The position numbers and the translations under genes were made by a program. DNA of 64,000 bases from NCBI RefSeq assembly GCF_016481275.1, contig NZ_JAEMNW010000007.1, positions 62,001 to 126,000 on the forward strand. The letters run 5' to 3'. Positions 8,477 to 13,136 of the stretch are shown here, piece after piece; the stretch's first letter is position 1; every line of letters begins with the position of its first letter. Source of the DNA: Antrihabitans auranticaus (lineage in GTDB: Bacteria > Actinomycetota > Actinomycetes > Mycobacteriales > Mycobacteriaceae). Below the pieces are notes generated by a model that did no database searches, was not told the DNA's origin, and worked only from the letters and a program-made list of their open reading frames with translations.

Positions 8477-9706
8477 GTGTATATCCGAAAAGCTTGGCAT
8501 GCAACGTTTGCCGCGCTGGTCGCCCTACTGGCTGCGATCACGCTCGTTGCTGGCTGCTCGGACGGCGGAATCGGCGGTACGTCGGAGGGCCCGCCGGACC
8601 CGGAGATCACCTTCACTCCGGCCGACGAGGCCGAGGACGTCAGCCCGGTCGCACCGATCTCCGTGCAGGTGGAAGACGGCACGATCGCGCAGGTCGAGCT
8701 GACCAACCCGTCCGGCAAGGCGGTCAAGGGCGCGCTGAATGCCGACAAGACCAAGTGGACGGTCGGCGAGCCGCTCGGCTACGGCATCACCTATACGTGG
8801 TCGGGCAACGCGGTCGGCGCCGAGAACAAGACCGTCACCATCGAAGGCAGTTTCACGACCGTGTCGCCGGATTCGACGACGTCGGCCCAGGTGCAGCTTG
8901 CCGACGGGCAGGAGGTCGGCATCGCGGCGCCGATCATCATCCAGTTCGACGCCCACGTCGAGGACAAGGCCGCCGTCGAACGGGCGCTGAAGGTCACGAC
9001 GACCCCGCAGACCGAAGGATCGTGGGCGTGGTTGCCCGACGACAACGGTTCACGCGTCCACTGGCGGCCGAAGGAGTACTGGACGCCTGGCACCAAGGTG
9101 AACCTGGACGCGAAGCTCTATGGCGTGGATTACGGCGACGGCGCCTACGGCGATTCCGACGTCACCCTGGACTTCACCATCGGCCGCAGCCAGATCGTCA
9201 AGGCGAACGCGCCGAGCCATCGGATGCAGGTGATTCGCGACGGGCAGACGGTGTTCGACTTCGCCGTCAGCTACGGCGAAGGCAACGAAGCTCGCAACGT
9301 CACCCGCAGCGGGACACACGTGGTGTCGGAAAAACACGAAGACTTCCTGATGTCGAACCCACCGTTCTACGAGAACGTGCGCGAACGCTGGGCGGTCCGC
9401 ATCTCGAACAACGGTGAATTCATCCATGCGAACCCGGAGACGACCGGCGCGCAGGGCTCGGCGAACGTCACCAACGGGTGTATCAACCTCGCACCCGAGG
9501 ATGCCCAGGCCTATTTCCCGACTGCGCTGTACGGCGACCCGGTAGAGGTGACCGGAACGTCGATCGATCTCTCCGCGGCTGATGGCGACATCTTCGACTG
9601 GACGATGGACTGGGAGACCTGGAAGTCCTACTCCGCACTGGCCGAGGACCCGGGCCAATCGCTCACCGCAACTCCGCGCAAGCCGGAACCGGCCGGCGGA
9701 AACTAG
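8477..9706 (+). CDS. L,D-transpeptidase lipoprotein (LdtMt5/LprQ-like)
   Basis: This 409-residue cell-wall enzyme would make 3-3 peptidoglycan cross-links. It has a lipoprotein signal peptide with lipobox LVAGC (Cys about residue 26), two Ig-like domains (about residues 40-250) and a YkuD catalytic domain. The active-site region reads IHANPETTG followed by VTNGCINLA; the cysteine is present, but the usual S/T-H-G-C reads T-N-G-C. The C-terminal tail [19 protein letters not shown] resembles that of the mycobacterial LdtMt5 group. GTG 8477 is preferred over GTG 8468 because TACCGT ends seven bases before it. Its stop overlaps that of the convergent SDR gene in CTAG. Confidence 0.88.
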
Positions 9707-10440
9707 GTCCGTCGGTTGAACCGGCCCGATTCGGCCTGATCGCGCGGCTTGACGACGATCTGATCGAGGTTCACGTGCGGCGGTCGTGACGCGACGAATC
9801 CGACGATCTCGGCGATGTCGGAGGCCACTAACGGATCGATGCCCTTGTAGACGGCGGCGGCCCGCTCCGCGTCACCCTCGAAGCGCACGAGTGAGAACTC
9901 GGTTTCGACGGCTCCGGGTGCGATCTCGGTGAGCCGAACGGGCTGGCCGAGCAATTCGCCGCGCAAGGTCCGGTGCAGCAGTGCCTGCGCGTGTTTGGCA
10001 GAGGTGTAACCGGCGCCGTTGTCGTATGAGCCGAGCGCCGCGACCGAGGTGATCGTGACGATCAGACCGTCGCCGGATTCGATGAGCTTCGGCAGCAGTG
10101 CTTTCGTGATCCGAAGCGTGCCCATGACGTTCGTTTCCCACATCCAGCGCCAGTCGTCCAGGTCGGCTTCGGCGACCGGGGCCAAACCCTTTGCCCCACC
10201 GGCGTTGTTGACCAAAACGTCGACACGGGGAATGACTGCGGTGAAGGCCGCCACGGAATCCTCGTCGGTGACATCGAGTTGCAGCGCCGTTCCGCCGATC
10301 TCGGCGGCCAGTTCCTCGAGACGGTCGACCCGCCGCGCACCCACGACGACATGAAACCCCTGGGCGGCCAGCGTCCGAGCCGTCGCTGCGCCGATTCCAG
10401 AACTGGCACCGGTCACGACAGCTGTGCGGTTCGTAGTCAT
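9703..10440 (-). CDS. Short-chain dehydrogenase/reductase
   Basis: A classical SDR of 245 residues. The cofactor motif is [12 protein letters not shown] near the N-terminus, with [12 protein letters not shown] after strand 2, which suggests NADP(H) preference. NNAGGAKG, the catalytic serine in ITSVAAL, and the YTSAKHA tyrosine-lysine pair are all intact. ATG 10440 is preceded by TACGAT six bases upstream on its strand, so it is probably leaderless. It corresponds to the Rv0484c position. The substrate is unknown. Confidence 0.88.
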
Positions 10441-10498
10441 GCAGCGATCGTAGAGGGCACAGCACAGGGTGTGCTGGGTCACGCCGCAACGCCCTGGC

Positions 10499-10527
10499 TT
10501 GGCGTCACGCTCCACGTTTGCTAACTT
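10499..10527 (+). promoter_or_regulatory. Promoter of the polycysteine small ORF
   Basis: A -35-like TTGGCG (10499-10504) and a -10-like TAACTT (10522-10527) are separated by 17 bases. The -10 box ends six bases before an ATG at 10534, so transcription would start at or next to that ATG and give a leaderless message. The transcript then continues into the ROK regulator gene. Confidence 0.6.
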
Positions 10528-10533
10528 TGCGAC

Positions 10534-10641
10534 ATGTCTTCCGGCGTATCGACCGCGCTGCGGGTCACCTATGTGACGTCCGCATTGGGTTCGCGCCTGC
10601 CTTTTGCTCGGGAACTGTGTTGTTCCTGCTGTTGTCTCTGA
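10534..10641 (+). CDS. Leaderless small ORF with C-terminal polycysteine (putative cysteine attenuator peptide)
   Basis: A 35-codon ORF lies in the 302-base gap before the ROK regulator. The peptide begins MSSGVSTALRVTYVTS and ends ELCCSCCCL, with five cysteines in the last seven residues directly before the stop. The ATG has a well-spaced promoter and no leader. In mycobacteria, leaderless short ORFs ending in consecutive cysteines are known to act as cysteine-responsive attenuators of the operon downstream, through slow translation at the Cys codons. This ORF has the same design. The 101 bases to the ROK gene include CCCC/GGGG around 10710-10725 that could pair. The peptide itself may have no function. 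Confidence 0.65.
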   Translation: MSSGVSTALRVTYVTSALGSRLPFARELCCSCCCL

Positions 10642-10742
10642 GGCTGATTCACGTTCTCTGAACGACCTCATTTCGACGCAGCTTCGGATGCCGTCAGCAC
10701 GACATTTCCCCCCGATTCGTGGGGTCTCGAGCAAGGAATTTC

Positions 10743-12008
10743 ATGTCTACGCCTACTCTCGCATCGCCGGCACTGGTCACTCGACTGGGCGCTACCGGCC
10801 GACCTGCCGCGCGAATCCAGTTGGTACCACCGGACTTTCGGATCGCTGACAACCCCACCGCCGCGGTTCTGCGCGCCGCATCCGCGCACGGACCCATCTC
10901 GCGCGATGCCGCAGCCAGGGCAACGGGGTTGAGTATTGCAACGGTGAACCGGCAAGTCGCGGGGCTGCTCGGAGCAAACCTGCTCCGCGAGCGCGCCGAC
11001 CTCACGGCGGCCGGCGCCATCGGCCGGCCACGGGTGCCGTTCGAGGTGAACCACGAGCCGTACCTGACGGTCGGCATCCACATCGGTGCCGTGGTCACGA
11101 GCATCATTGCCAGCGACTTGCGCGGCCGCATTCTCGGCGGTGTCGAAATCCCGACACCGCGCACGGGTCAGGACGCCGCACTCGCCGTCATTGCCCGCAG
11201 CGCAAAGACATTCACCGCCCGCTGGCACCGGCGCCGTCCGCTGTGGGTGGGCGTCGCACTCGGCGGCCGCGTCGATTCGGCGACCGGCACAGCTGACCAC
11301 CCCCGCCTCGGTTGGCGCCGCGCCCGAATCAGCGCGATCGTCGGCGAATCGCTCGGCCTGCCAGTCTCGGTATCGGCGCACGTCGAAGCGATGGCCGCCG
11401 CCGAACTGCTGCTCGCCCCGAAGACCGCCGAAGAGCGGACGCCCGGCGCGGCCTCGCTCTACTTCTATGCACGTGAAACGGCGGGAATCGCGCTCACCAT
11501 CGACGATCGGGTCCACACCCCGAACAACGGTCCGGGCTCGATCGTGCACCTACCGACCGGCTCCGACGCCGTGTGCGAATGCGGCAAGCGCGGCTGCCTC
11601 GAGGCGACCGTCAGTGACCGGGCGGTGCTCGACAAAGCGCGCAGCCTCGGCATCCTGACCGGCGACTCGCGGCCTGCGATCAGTGCGCTCTACGAAGCGG
11701 CGCGCGGAGGTTCCCTTGCGGCGCACAGGCTTCTGGTCGAGCGTGCCGAAGTGCTCGGCCGGACGGTCGCAATGCTCCGCGACCTCTTCAACCCCGACCG
11801 CGTAGTTCTCGGCGGGCAGGCGTTCACCGAATACCCGTCGGTGATTCCTCATGTCGCGGAAGCATTTGCCGGGGCTTCGACGTTGGCGCACAAAGATATT
11901 CGCATCAGCGGCTTCGGTAACCGGGTCCAGGAGTTCGCCGCGAGCGTGACGTCGCTGAGTGCGATCTATGCGGATCCACTCACCTCGATGCGACGCGCGG
12001 TGTCGTAG
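10743..12008 (+). CDS. ROK-family transcriptional regulator
   Basis: A 421-residue ROK repressor homologous to Rv0485. An N-terminal winged helix-turn-helix (about residues 45-85; SRDAAARATGLSIATVNRQV) is followed by a sugar-kinase-like ROK domain. The zinc motif CECGKRGCLEA is present. The phosphate-binding loop of active kinases is not obvious, so a regulator rather than a kinase is likely. ATG 10743 has a ribosome binding site AAGGA (10733-10737). The gene sits on a transcript that begins with the polycysteine small ORF and ends at a perfect hairpin (12055-12080). The effector is unknown. Confidence 0.85.
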   Translation: MSTPTLASPALVTRLGATGRPAARIQLVPPDFRIADNPTAAVLRAASAHGPISRDAAARATGLSIATVNRQVAGLLGANLLRERADLTAAGAIGRPRVPFEVNHEPYLTVGIHIGAVVTSIIASDLRGRILGGVEIPTPRTGQDAALAVIARSAKTFTARWHRRRPLWVGVALGGRVDSATGTADHPRLGWRRARISAIVGESLGLPVSVSAHVEAMAAAELLLAPKTAEERTPGAASLYFYARETAGIALTIDDRVHTPNNGPGSIVHLPTGSDAVCECGKRGCLEATVSDRAVLDKARSLGILTGDSRPAISALYEAARGGSLAAHRLLVERAEVLGRTVAMLRDLFNPDRVVLGGQAFTEYPSVIPHVAEAFAGASTLAHKDIRISGFGNRVQEFAASVTSLSAIYADPLTSMRRAVS

Positions 12009-12054
12009 GCCCCGCGCTTCGGGCGCAACGGCTTTCACGCTCGCGGTTTGGTGT

Positions 12055-12080
12055 CCCGCTCGCGTAATAACGCGAGCGGG
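12055..12080. terminator. Bidirectional hairpin terminator
   Basis: A perfect 10-base-pair stem, CCCGCTCGCG and CGCGAGCGGG, encloses the loop TAATAA. It lies between the convergent ROK and tocopherol-cyclase-like genes, 46 and 30 bases from their stops, and could serve both strands. No long T tract follows, as is usual in this group. Confidence 0.75.
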
Positions 12081-12110
12081 CCGCAAGAAGGCGAGCGCGG
12101 TGGTGCGCCC

Positions 12111-13136
12111 CTAGGCAACAGGCGGAGCTGCCGCGGGATCGGTACTCGCGCGACGCTCATGTTCCTCCCGGGCGCGCTCGAAACCGCCGTATTCCAGTGC
12201 GGCGATAGTTGATTCGCCACTCCACGAGATCTCGGCACGCCGCCGCAGCGTCACGTGCATTCGGGCGCCGAGGTGGACGATCGCGGCGGGTGCGTTCTTC
12301 TCGTCGTCGAGGGATGGCGCGGGCAACACGAACGCCGCGTCGAGGGGTGAACTACCTTCGATCTCGATGCCGGACATCGGACTTCGACCGTGCAGCGAGA
12401 ACTTCTCTTCGTCGACGTGTGCTCGGACGTGGGAGGTGCGCGGACCGCCGAACCGCAGTACGGCGCCGTTCGGGAGTCGGATGACGACGAGGGTCGTCTC
12501 GATTCGCATCCTGCCGGAAGTGAAGGCGCCACCGGCGAAGGAGACGCAAGTGCCGTCGTCGAAACCCTGCGCCTGACCGCACCACCATTTCTCGGGGAAA
12601 GCGCCTGACCCCCAGCGCTTTTCGGCGTAGACCTCGGCGCCCGTGAGGTCCCATGTCTCGCCTCCGACGACGGCGGTCCCTTCGACCTTTCCGCCGAACA
12701 ACCACGGGTGCCAGCGGTGCGCGACGCCGGGGATCGACTGGAAGAAGCTGGCGCCGCCGAATGCGCGCCGTGGCCATTCGATCCGGTCGGTGATACGAAC
12801 GTCGAGTTGCGCGTCCGGCCCGAGATCGACCTGCACGCCGTCGACGTCAGCCCTCAGTACTTTCCCGGCTTCGGCGCCCAGGCGATGCGGGTCGGCAACG
12901 CCTTCGGGTACTGCCGCTGTGCGGACGAACCCGTTCGGGTGGGCCGCGAAACTCACAGTCGACCAGGGGCCGTCGGCGCCGCGGTTCACCCCGACGAAGA
13001 CGGTCAGCGAGCGCCCGGTGCCCGGCTGGCTGAACCGCCAGAAGTAGCCCTCCGACGCAACGCCGTGGGCGGGCAGCGGATCGCCGAACGGCAGATCCGC
13101 GCCGGTGGACCGGAAACGGTCGAGAAGACTCGGCAT
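12111..13136 (-). CDS. Tocopherol-cyclase-like family protein
   Basis: The 341-residue protein resembles plant VTE1-type tocopherol cyclase (Pfam Tocopherol_cycl): EGYFWRFSQPGTGRSLTVFV in the first half, then AEVYAEKRWGSGAFPEKWWC and a GFDDG segment, which correspond to the AEK-WG-GFP-KWWW region of the plant enzymes. Actinobacteria are not known to make tocopherol, so it may act on another prenylquinone or lipid, or bind rather than cyclise. No signal peptide is visible. ATG 13136 lies seven bases after TAGCCT on the coding strand, pointing to a leaderless start. It faces the ROK gene across a shared terminator. Confidence 0.7.
   Translation of the reverse strand: MPSLLDRFRSTGADLPFGDPLPAHGVASEGYFWRFSQPGTGRSLTVFVGVNRGADGPWSTVSFAAHPNGFVRTAAVPEGVADPHRLGAEAGKVLRADVDGVQVDLGPDAQLDVRITDRIEWPRRAFGGASFFQSIPGVAHRWHPWLFGGKVEGTAVVGGETWDLTGAEVYAEKRWGSGAFPEKWWCGQAQGFDDGTCVSFAGGAFTSGRMRIETTLVVIRLPNGAVLRFGGPRTSHVRAHVDEEKFSLHGRSPMSGIEIEGSSPLDAAFVLPAPSLDDEKNAPAAIVHLGARMHVTLRRRAEISWSGESTIAALEYGGFERAREEHERRASTDPAAAPPVA

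Follow-up and report, generated by a model that had tools for sequence, protein, structure and literature searches.

A conserved and probably cysteine-sensing leader reading frame precedes a sulfur-linked ROK regulator in Antrihabitans and its relatives

In a 64-kb stretch of Antrihabitans auranticaus DNA (G000:C22:62001-126000, from a 6.5-Mb genome; hereafter the window), a 35-codon open reading frame (ORF), P0001, that is rich in cysteine near its stop codon lies just ahead of a gene for a ROK-family regulator, P0002. This locus raises the question of whether so small an ORF is real and, if it is, what it senses and what it controls. The leader is real and not a chance reading frame, it is conserved ahead of the regulator in numerous soil bacteria, and it is probably cysteine sensing. 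We judge it fairly probable, from sequence, that it is a leaderless cysteine-responsive attenuator controlling a sulfur-linked ROK regulator.

The features of the locus are collected in Table 1. Exactly as an initial annotation of the window had described, TTGGCG (10499 to 10504) is followed after 17 nucleotides (nt) by TAACTT (10522 to 10527), the ATG of the 35-codon ORF begins after a 6-base gap at 10534, and the peptide ends in ELCCSCCCL. The -10 box is of the extended type, TGC-TAACTT. A scan for E. coli-type promoters reported none at the leader. Five of the last seven residues of the encoded peptide, MSSGVSTALRVTYVTSALGSRLPFARELCCSCCCL, are Cys, and its conserved pair of Cys codons stands seven and six codons ahead of the stop. 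The leader has the orientation of the ROK gene and lies just upstream of it, as in polycysteine leaderless small-ORF attenuators; its frame differs from the ROK frame, and 101 nt separate the leader stop from the ROK start. Small size alone would suit a chance frame. Among the 638 distinct short ORFs of the window (15 to 60 codons, ATG or GTG starts, both strands), however, only the leader has at least four Cys in its last seven residues. Five window ORFs have a TANNNT box 5 to 7 nt before the start, and among them the leader alone has at least three Cys. No ORF with at least five terminal Cys occurred in 30 first-order Markov windows. This control, together with the conservation, the one strong match in the genome, and the codon and peptide constraint described below, refutes the chance frame, to which we give practically no weight.

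P0002 was matched in 81 of 151 genomes (E ≤ 1e-40), and 80 named loci were also collected; 90 of 94 ROK places were used, those left out being one at a contig end (G032) and three weaker ones (G042:C1, G029:C193, and G025:C14). The ROK loci were ranked by tblastn into the 150 strongest (at least 295 bits; L001-L070 and L092-L171) and 21 weaker ones (at most 284 bits), a division by score and not by identity, given that L071 and L072 of the weaker set are 45% identical. At 138 of the 150 strongest loci, ROK is preceded by a leaderless-type ORF with the core VTYVTxALGxRLPxxRELCC. These 150 contain the window as two entries and some genomes under a pair of identifiers, and the bearers of the core include Antrihabitans, Rhodococcus, Nocardia, and others. 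Ten core-less loci of this set have a different leaderless-type Cys-rich ORF before ROK; L046 has none, and L035 has only a doubtful one. Leaderless-type Cys leaders with a distinct recurrent end (CRMCC or CRMYC type) stand before ROK at L032, L033, L038, L041, and L043. The core was found at none of the 21 weaker loci (33 to 45% identity), which comprise loci of other families, second hits, and five best matches of genomes of the same family (L085-L089); one of the 21, L086, has a Cys-rich ORF.

The TANNNT box is present in every leader found because the finder required it 4 to 9 nt before the start, but the spacing was not so fixed: among 89 non-redundant leaders it is 6 nt in 26, 7 nt in 58, and 8 nt in 5. 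A G lies two bases upstream of the box in 85 of these leaders and a T three bases upstream in 79. Scanning without the TANNNT demand added a single core, at L215, itself with TAAATT six bases before its start. A ROK start could be assigned for 130 of the 138 leaders, and in these 59 to 185 nt lie between the leader stop and that start. Searched against its own genome, a 22-peptide profile gave one strong match (E 1.5e-19; next, 0.675) and no further copy of the leader. Across 397 genomes of the order, the profile matched 30 at E ≤ 0.01, and 27 of these had a strong match (E < 1e-12), with a single match per genome; 19 candidates were scored per genome, and misses are no proof of absence. By coordinates compared for 22 of the 27 strong matches, 21 adjoin ROK, and the G032 match is on another contig than the cut-off ROK gene. 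All nine Gordonia-like genomes have the leader (Gordonia-like [g9/g11], Mycobacterium-like [g29], and Corynebacterium-like [g3] are inferred genus labels).

What is kept within the leader is the Cys pair. The first Cys is present in 88 of the 89 leaders and the second, which completes the pair, in 80, and the first lies 5 to 10 codons from the stop in 84. The tail varies among relatives, and many Nocardia leaders finish in RELCCSRPRS, with the CC pair only. The Cys-ended ORF that the initial annotation would have sought in relatives recurs with respect to the pair and not to the long tail; the terminal run is not kept, and we reject the idea that a polycysteine run is what is conserved. TGT encodes the first Cys in 108 of 110 distinct leaders (85 of 86 aligned cores), whereas the corresponding ROK genes at these loci use 296 TGC and 5 TGT codons. 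The aligned cores (alignment A4) are 86 of the 89 leaders; L062 has no first Cys in register, L066 and L069 no second, and these three were left out.

Constraint extends to the body of the peptide. L18, G19, R21, L22, P23, and R26 are invariant in the 86 aligned cores while synonymous codons vary at most of them (Gly: GGT 46, GGC 25, GGA 12, and GGG 3; Pro: CCG 50, CCT 19, CCC 12, and CCA 5). This invariance is partly built in, since cores were picked by the pattern LG.RLP..R; as a control, looser scoring of all loci yielded one missed core (L215) and two degenerate ones (L234 and L238). Because the residues are invariant while the codons vary, the peptide itself may matter, and its body, beyond the control codons, may be under selection.

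The Mycobacterium-like genus differs in this respect. ROK was found in 57 of its 60 genomes, and a leaderless-type Cys-rich ORF precedes ROK in all 32 loci examined, but in 31 of them it encodes a different peptide without the core, mostly with a CCC or CCCC run. L215 alone carries the core, as RVTFVIAGIGSRLPLARELCC (LG changed to IG), while L234 and L238 have a degenerate, decayed-looking one. The core at L215 and the half-kept cores at L234 and L238 suggest that the mycobacterial leader type is derived from the core type. Core-less leaders were found by requiring at least three Cys in eight residues (Mycobacterium-like set) or at least two in ten (the 150/21 set). In raw counts uncorrected for relatedness, 73 of 94 core leaders have 2 or 3 Cys in their densest eight residues, versus 4 Cys in 25 of 34 core-less leaders.

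The surroundings of the regulator point to sulfur. P0002 scores far under the NagC and Mlc cut-offs, so that "sugar-type" is a family label only; an N-terminal winged helix is hinted at by sub-threshold Pfam matches. At least one gene of the TauD, sulfatase, SsuA, or NtaA type was present in the collected flanks of 52 of the 80 named loci, a count made without a random-region control and leaving out L102 (under 7 kb), as did the search for mshA below. The TauD, sulfatase, and SsuA-type neighbors are family-level assignments, since they fall under the NCBIfam curated cut-offs. In five hand-picked genomes, three of them of the genus of the window, the best TauD match (18 in total) lay less than 0.5 kb from ROK each time. 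In the three genomes of that genus (G001-G003), a TauD-like gene is divergent from the leader, and the window has a short-chain dehydrogenase/reductase (SDR) gene directly upstream instead. In Rhodococcus sp. P-2 (L107), genes for an SDR, a sulfatase (PF00884), and a TauD-like dioxygenase are followed by the divergent leader-ROK pair, which matches the order given for IGTS8_peg5938-5940 in the relevant part of PMC8557817. On the basis of gene order and nearby mshA, not of sequence, peg5940 of R. qingshengii IGTS8 is the apparent ROK orthologue. Proteomic data in the same part of that paper place the IGTS8 ROK protein 18- to 33-fold up in dibenzothiophene (sulfate-starved) cultures. These observations suggest that the role of the Rv0485-type ROK regulator lies in sulfur rather than sugar.

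The initial annotation had instead placed a sugar-type regulator close to mshA. ROK and mshA are parted in the window by a gene on the minus strand (12111 to 13136) for a tocopherol-cyclase-like protein (PF14249, E 1.7e-9), homologues of which occur at a similar place in several relatives. mshA and the upstream SDR gene were not found in the flanks (at most about 7 kb a side, some shorter) of 33 named Nocardia loci, and the leader is nonetheless present there. Of the named loci outside Nocardia, 46 were searched, and 35 of them have mshA 0.9 to 6.8 kb downstream. Thirty of the 32 Mycobacterium-like loci also have it, 27 of the 32 less than 200 nt after ROK, and with the two genes so close an operon link may hold there. 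mshA as the true target is thus rejected for the window, given the intervening gene, and for Nocardia, with no mshA nearby. With organosulfur neighbors in addition, a sugar regulator linked to mshA is doubtful.

A leaderless Cys-codon leader controlling ROK, as first proposed, remains the best reading of the sequence. The ORF, its promoter geometry and conservation, the codon constraint, the pairing of the Shine-Dalgarno (SD) sequence in Nocardia, and the frequent sulfur neighbors are shown; the cysteine response and its direction are inferred, as are the regulon and, for the window, the SD step. The proposal runs as follows. Judged from the promoter spacing, transcription would start at or next to the ATG, and a ribosome would load on the leader immediately. 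When Cys-tRNA is short, the ribosome would halt at the two conserved Cys codons and block pairing of leader RNA with the ROK SD, so that ROK would be made. When cysteine is plentiful, the ribosome would reach the stop and leave, the SD would be sequestered, and ROK would stay low. Control would most likely fall on ROK translation, and ROK would then act on organosulfur scavenging, that is, on taurine, sulfonate, and sulfate-ester genes. The peptide body may add to this. We tentatively propose a nascent-chain-assisted cysteine sensor, itself not a likely reading, in which LG-RLP--R in the exit tunnel primes ribosome arrest at the Cys codons. LG-RLP--R would trail the first Cys codon by 3 to 11 residues, and two Cys codons led by the rare UGU would suffice, with the mycobacterial-type leaders that lack the segment mostly using four. 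If this is true, cysteine would be gauged by an arrest peptide, a new mode of sensing, and the signal would feed an organosulfur-scavenging switch and not a biosynthetic operon.

Folding of the window RNA is consistent with the SD step. The predicted accessibility of the window SD is 0.12 in free RNA, 0.43 with a ribosome at Cys29, 0.12 with one at the stop, and 0.20 with one in mid-ORF. In relatives, the SD is mostly (G/A)CAAGGA. Across the 89 leaders, stalling raises the predicted accessibility by more than 0.1 in 27 and lowers it in 9, and complementarity between SD and leader reaches rank 10 or better against 200 shuffles in 24. Nineteen of the 24 named Nocardia leaders reach that rank, with a mean z of -2.38. 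An 8-bp helix joins CCUUGUUG to the SD CAACAAGG in Nocardia group B (98.7% of cells), and in group A, UCCUCGCUGC pairs with GCAGCAAGGA (89.2% of cells). Sequestration of the SD is well supported in Nocardia and only suggested in the window. The leader-stop block GCAGC-U-GAGAA is, by inspection, a candidate competitor for the adjacent UUCUCGCUGC. The Cys-codon region forms the best SD duplex in Prescottella-type leaders and in several Gordonia-like ones, for most of them nonsignificantly, and three of the five non-Nocardia leaders with SD complementarity fall among the 10 Gordonia-like ones. The best SD partners are clade specific, and a uniform RNA structure in all clades was not found. An Rfam search of window positions 9500 to 12100 gave no accepted match and one sub-threshold snoRNA (E 0.29) outside the leader.

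Two further elements lie within the leader (Table 1). For the hairpin H2, 82% of cells pair over the 86 cores versus at most 50.5% in slid controls, and in 20 distinct Nocardia group B rows the third bases of the Glu and second Cys codons covary (G-C in 10, A-U in 9, and other in 1). In the inverted repeat H1, all 86 aligned cores encode Val11 by GTC, and the 75 Val codons at position 14 are all GTG; among 108 cores, the Val11 exceptions are GTG in L028 and GTT in L167. L057 encodes VSYET with GTCTC-N4-GAGAC, a compensated form of GTCAC-N4-GTGAC. In its own genome, the exact pattern occurs at the leader site only.

Several observations weigh against this translational mechanism. The SD pairing of the window ranks 25 of 200 shuffles, nonsignificant alone, and mean SD accessibility over the 89 leaders gains little on stalling (0.26 free, 0.32 stalled, 0.30 at the stop, and 0.30 in mid-ORF). 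Leaders of the same genus are unlike that of the window: the values for L003 are 0.62 free, 0.37 stalled, and 0.37 at the stop, L004 is flat at 0.43, and L005 gives 0.42, 0.56, and 0.46. Outside Nocardia, 5 of 65 leaders reach rank 10 of 200, with about 3.6 expected (mean z, -0.36). Within Nocardia, five of the eight group B SD:anti-SD pairs never vary and no two-sided change occurs, and the group A pairs likewise show none. Covariation of H1 and H2 over all cores is 0.125, against 0.124 in a control slid by +3, and is not decisive as proof. The distance from first Cys to stop spans 2 to 19 codons, and the ROK increase in IGTS8 bears on a cysteine response only indirectly and could be transcriptional.

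Since SD complementarity rests on Nocardia, we are less confident of translational control and more so of the same cysteine sensor acting on transcription. There, a ribosome-free stretch would bring Rho-dependent or intrinsic termination before ROK, and stalling would prevent it. Weak SD pairing outside Nocardia suits this account, and for the Cys leaders of cys operons Rho has been suggested, with conserved terminator hairpins unseen, in the pertinent passages of Seliverstov et al. 2005 (PMC1262725). H2 with a T-rich tail makes one terminator-like site in the window, but one site compared with a shuffle mean of 0.4 is no evidence, and H2 spans the Cys codons within the leader ORF instead of directly preceding ROK. 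The pairing in Nocardia, moreover, speaks for translation, and we regard the transcriptional account as rather unlikely. More unlikely again is a reading in which the dyad H1 serves as a DNA operator, for instance in autoregulation of ROK, and the leader is secondary. The dyad is nearly invariant in nucleotides and is compensated in L057, and the ROK regulators Mlc, NagC, and CysR act at inverted repeats according to the portion of PMC2580772 concerned. Yet the lack of a second exact copy in the genome makes H1 as an operator alone unlikely, the core-less Mycobacterium-like leaders inspected are without the VTYVT segment, and the dyad is unlike the C. glutamicum CysR motif TGAAtnnAAt quoted in that portion. 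Such an operator would also supplement the Cys-codon evidence, not replace it. The retention of LG-RLP--R over varying synonymous codons would also fit a peptide acting in trans, as a small Cys-rich metal- or redox-binding protein and not as a cis sensor. This we consider very improbable: the core is absent at the same place in 31 of the 32 Mycobacterium-like loci, the Cys tail varies, two Cys being all that many leaders carry, and the fixation of UGU at the nucleotide level is unneeded for protein function.

Table 1. Features of the leader-ROK locus (window coordinates)
Feature	Position	Strand	Basis
Promoter TTGGCG, then N17, with extended -10 TGC-TAACTT (10519-10527)	10499..10527	+	Sequence
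Leaderless-type leader peptide ORF P0001, 35 codons	10534..10641	+	Sequence; core homologues before ROK
Inverted repeat H1, GTCAC-CTAT-GTGAC, from codons V11-T15	10564..10577	+	Sequence
Conserved core LG-RLP--RE, codons 18-27	10585..10614	+	86 aligned cores
Predicted anti-SD UUGCUCG, partner CGAGCAA (10728-10734)	10604..10610	+	Folding
Predicted hairpin H2, CGGGAAC-UGUGUU-GUUCCUG, first Cys codon in loop	10609..10628	+	Window pairing
Cys codons 29, 30, 32, 33, and 34 (TGT TGT tcc TGC TGT TGT); conserved pair, 29 and 30	10618..10635	+	
ROK SD region, with AAGGA (10733-10737), inside predicted pairing	10728..10737	+	Sequence
ROK-family regulator P0002 (PF00480), proposed controlled gene	10743..12008	+	Pfam match

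Leaderless Cys ORFs of this kind reportedly attenuate by cysteine in M. smegmatis, in work of 2020 credited elsewhere to Canestrari. The initial annotation was aware of no earlier report of such an ORF ahead of a ROK gene. That statement fails, since the section of Shell et al. 2015 (PMC4633059, Fig. 7) on such ORFs lists three loci at which leaderless Cys-rich ORFs are conserved, Rv0485/Msmeg_0932 among them. The leader resembles that mycobacterial polycysteine ORF in its apparently leaderless type, its Cys near the stop, and the ROK gene downstream. Unlike the mycobacterial type, the Antrihabitans-type leader has the conserved core body and usually keeps two Cys codons, and in the window ROK is not directly followed by mshA. 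In full-text searches of open-licence papers, no description of the Rhodococcus/Nocardia leader peptide was found.

The Antrihabitans genome has a second Cys-rich leader, MTGAGVRLVARRHVDFKRVCSSCCLPSSLC, at L287:17224-17316 on the minus strand (G000:C19:310723-310815), which precedes nirA and cys genes (cysD, cysN, and APS reductase). It matches the NCBIfam Ms4527A family NF042936 (E 2.2e-13; 49.5 bits versus a 45-bit cut-off). A TANNNT-requiring scan of sulfate operons missed it, a false negative, and a looser scan found it. With the ROK leader, which is likewise Cys rich, the genome therefore holds at least two candidate cysteine leaders. The ROK leader does not match NF042936 at E ≤ 10, and no NCBIfam or Pfam family matches its peptide. 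Predicted Cys leader peptides of actinobacterial cys operons, as covered by the corresponding part of Seliverstov et al. 2005 (PMC1262725), also have Cys runs near the stop and no clear terminator; in contrast to the ROK leader, those peptides were assigned to cys operons and to a cbs gene and not to a regulator. Two ROK-family proteins of sulfur assimilation, CysR and SsuR of C. glutamicum, are at most candidate orthologues of P0002, and their transcripts, by the pertinent part of PMC2580772, start at the coding start (no leader ORF) and are controlled by McbR. In the Corynebacterium-like genomes, ROK was matched in 46 of 61 at E ≤ 1e-15 (best, 2.4e-30) with only 28 to 37% identity.

Classical trp-type attenuators have control codons near the leader stop and alternative pairings. 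The ROK leader has such codons and alternative pairings are proposed for it, but the predicted outcome is SD exposure and not termination, and no 5' untranslated region would precede the leader. If our reading is true, cysteine sensing sits above sulfur-scavenging genes in Rhodococcus, Nocardia, and relatives, among them a desulfurizing strain in which sulfate starvation raises the apparent ROK regulator, and the leader offers a testable case in which the peptide body, besides the control codons, looks to be under selection. The leader class is known already, even for this type of ROK gene in mycobacteria; the additions are the peptide type, the fixed UGU, the constraint at the peptide level, and the sulfur context.

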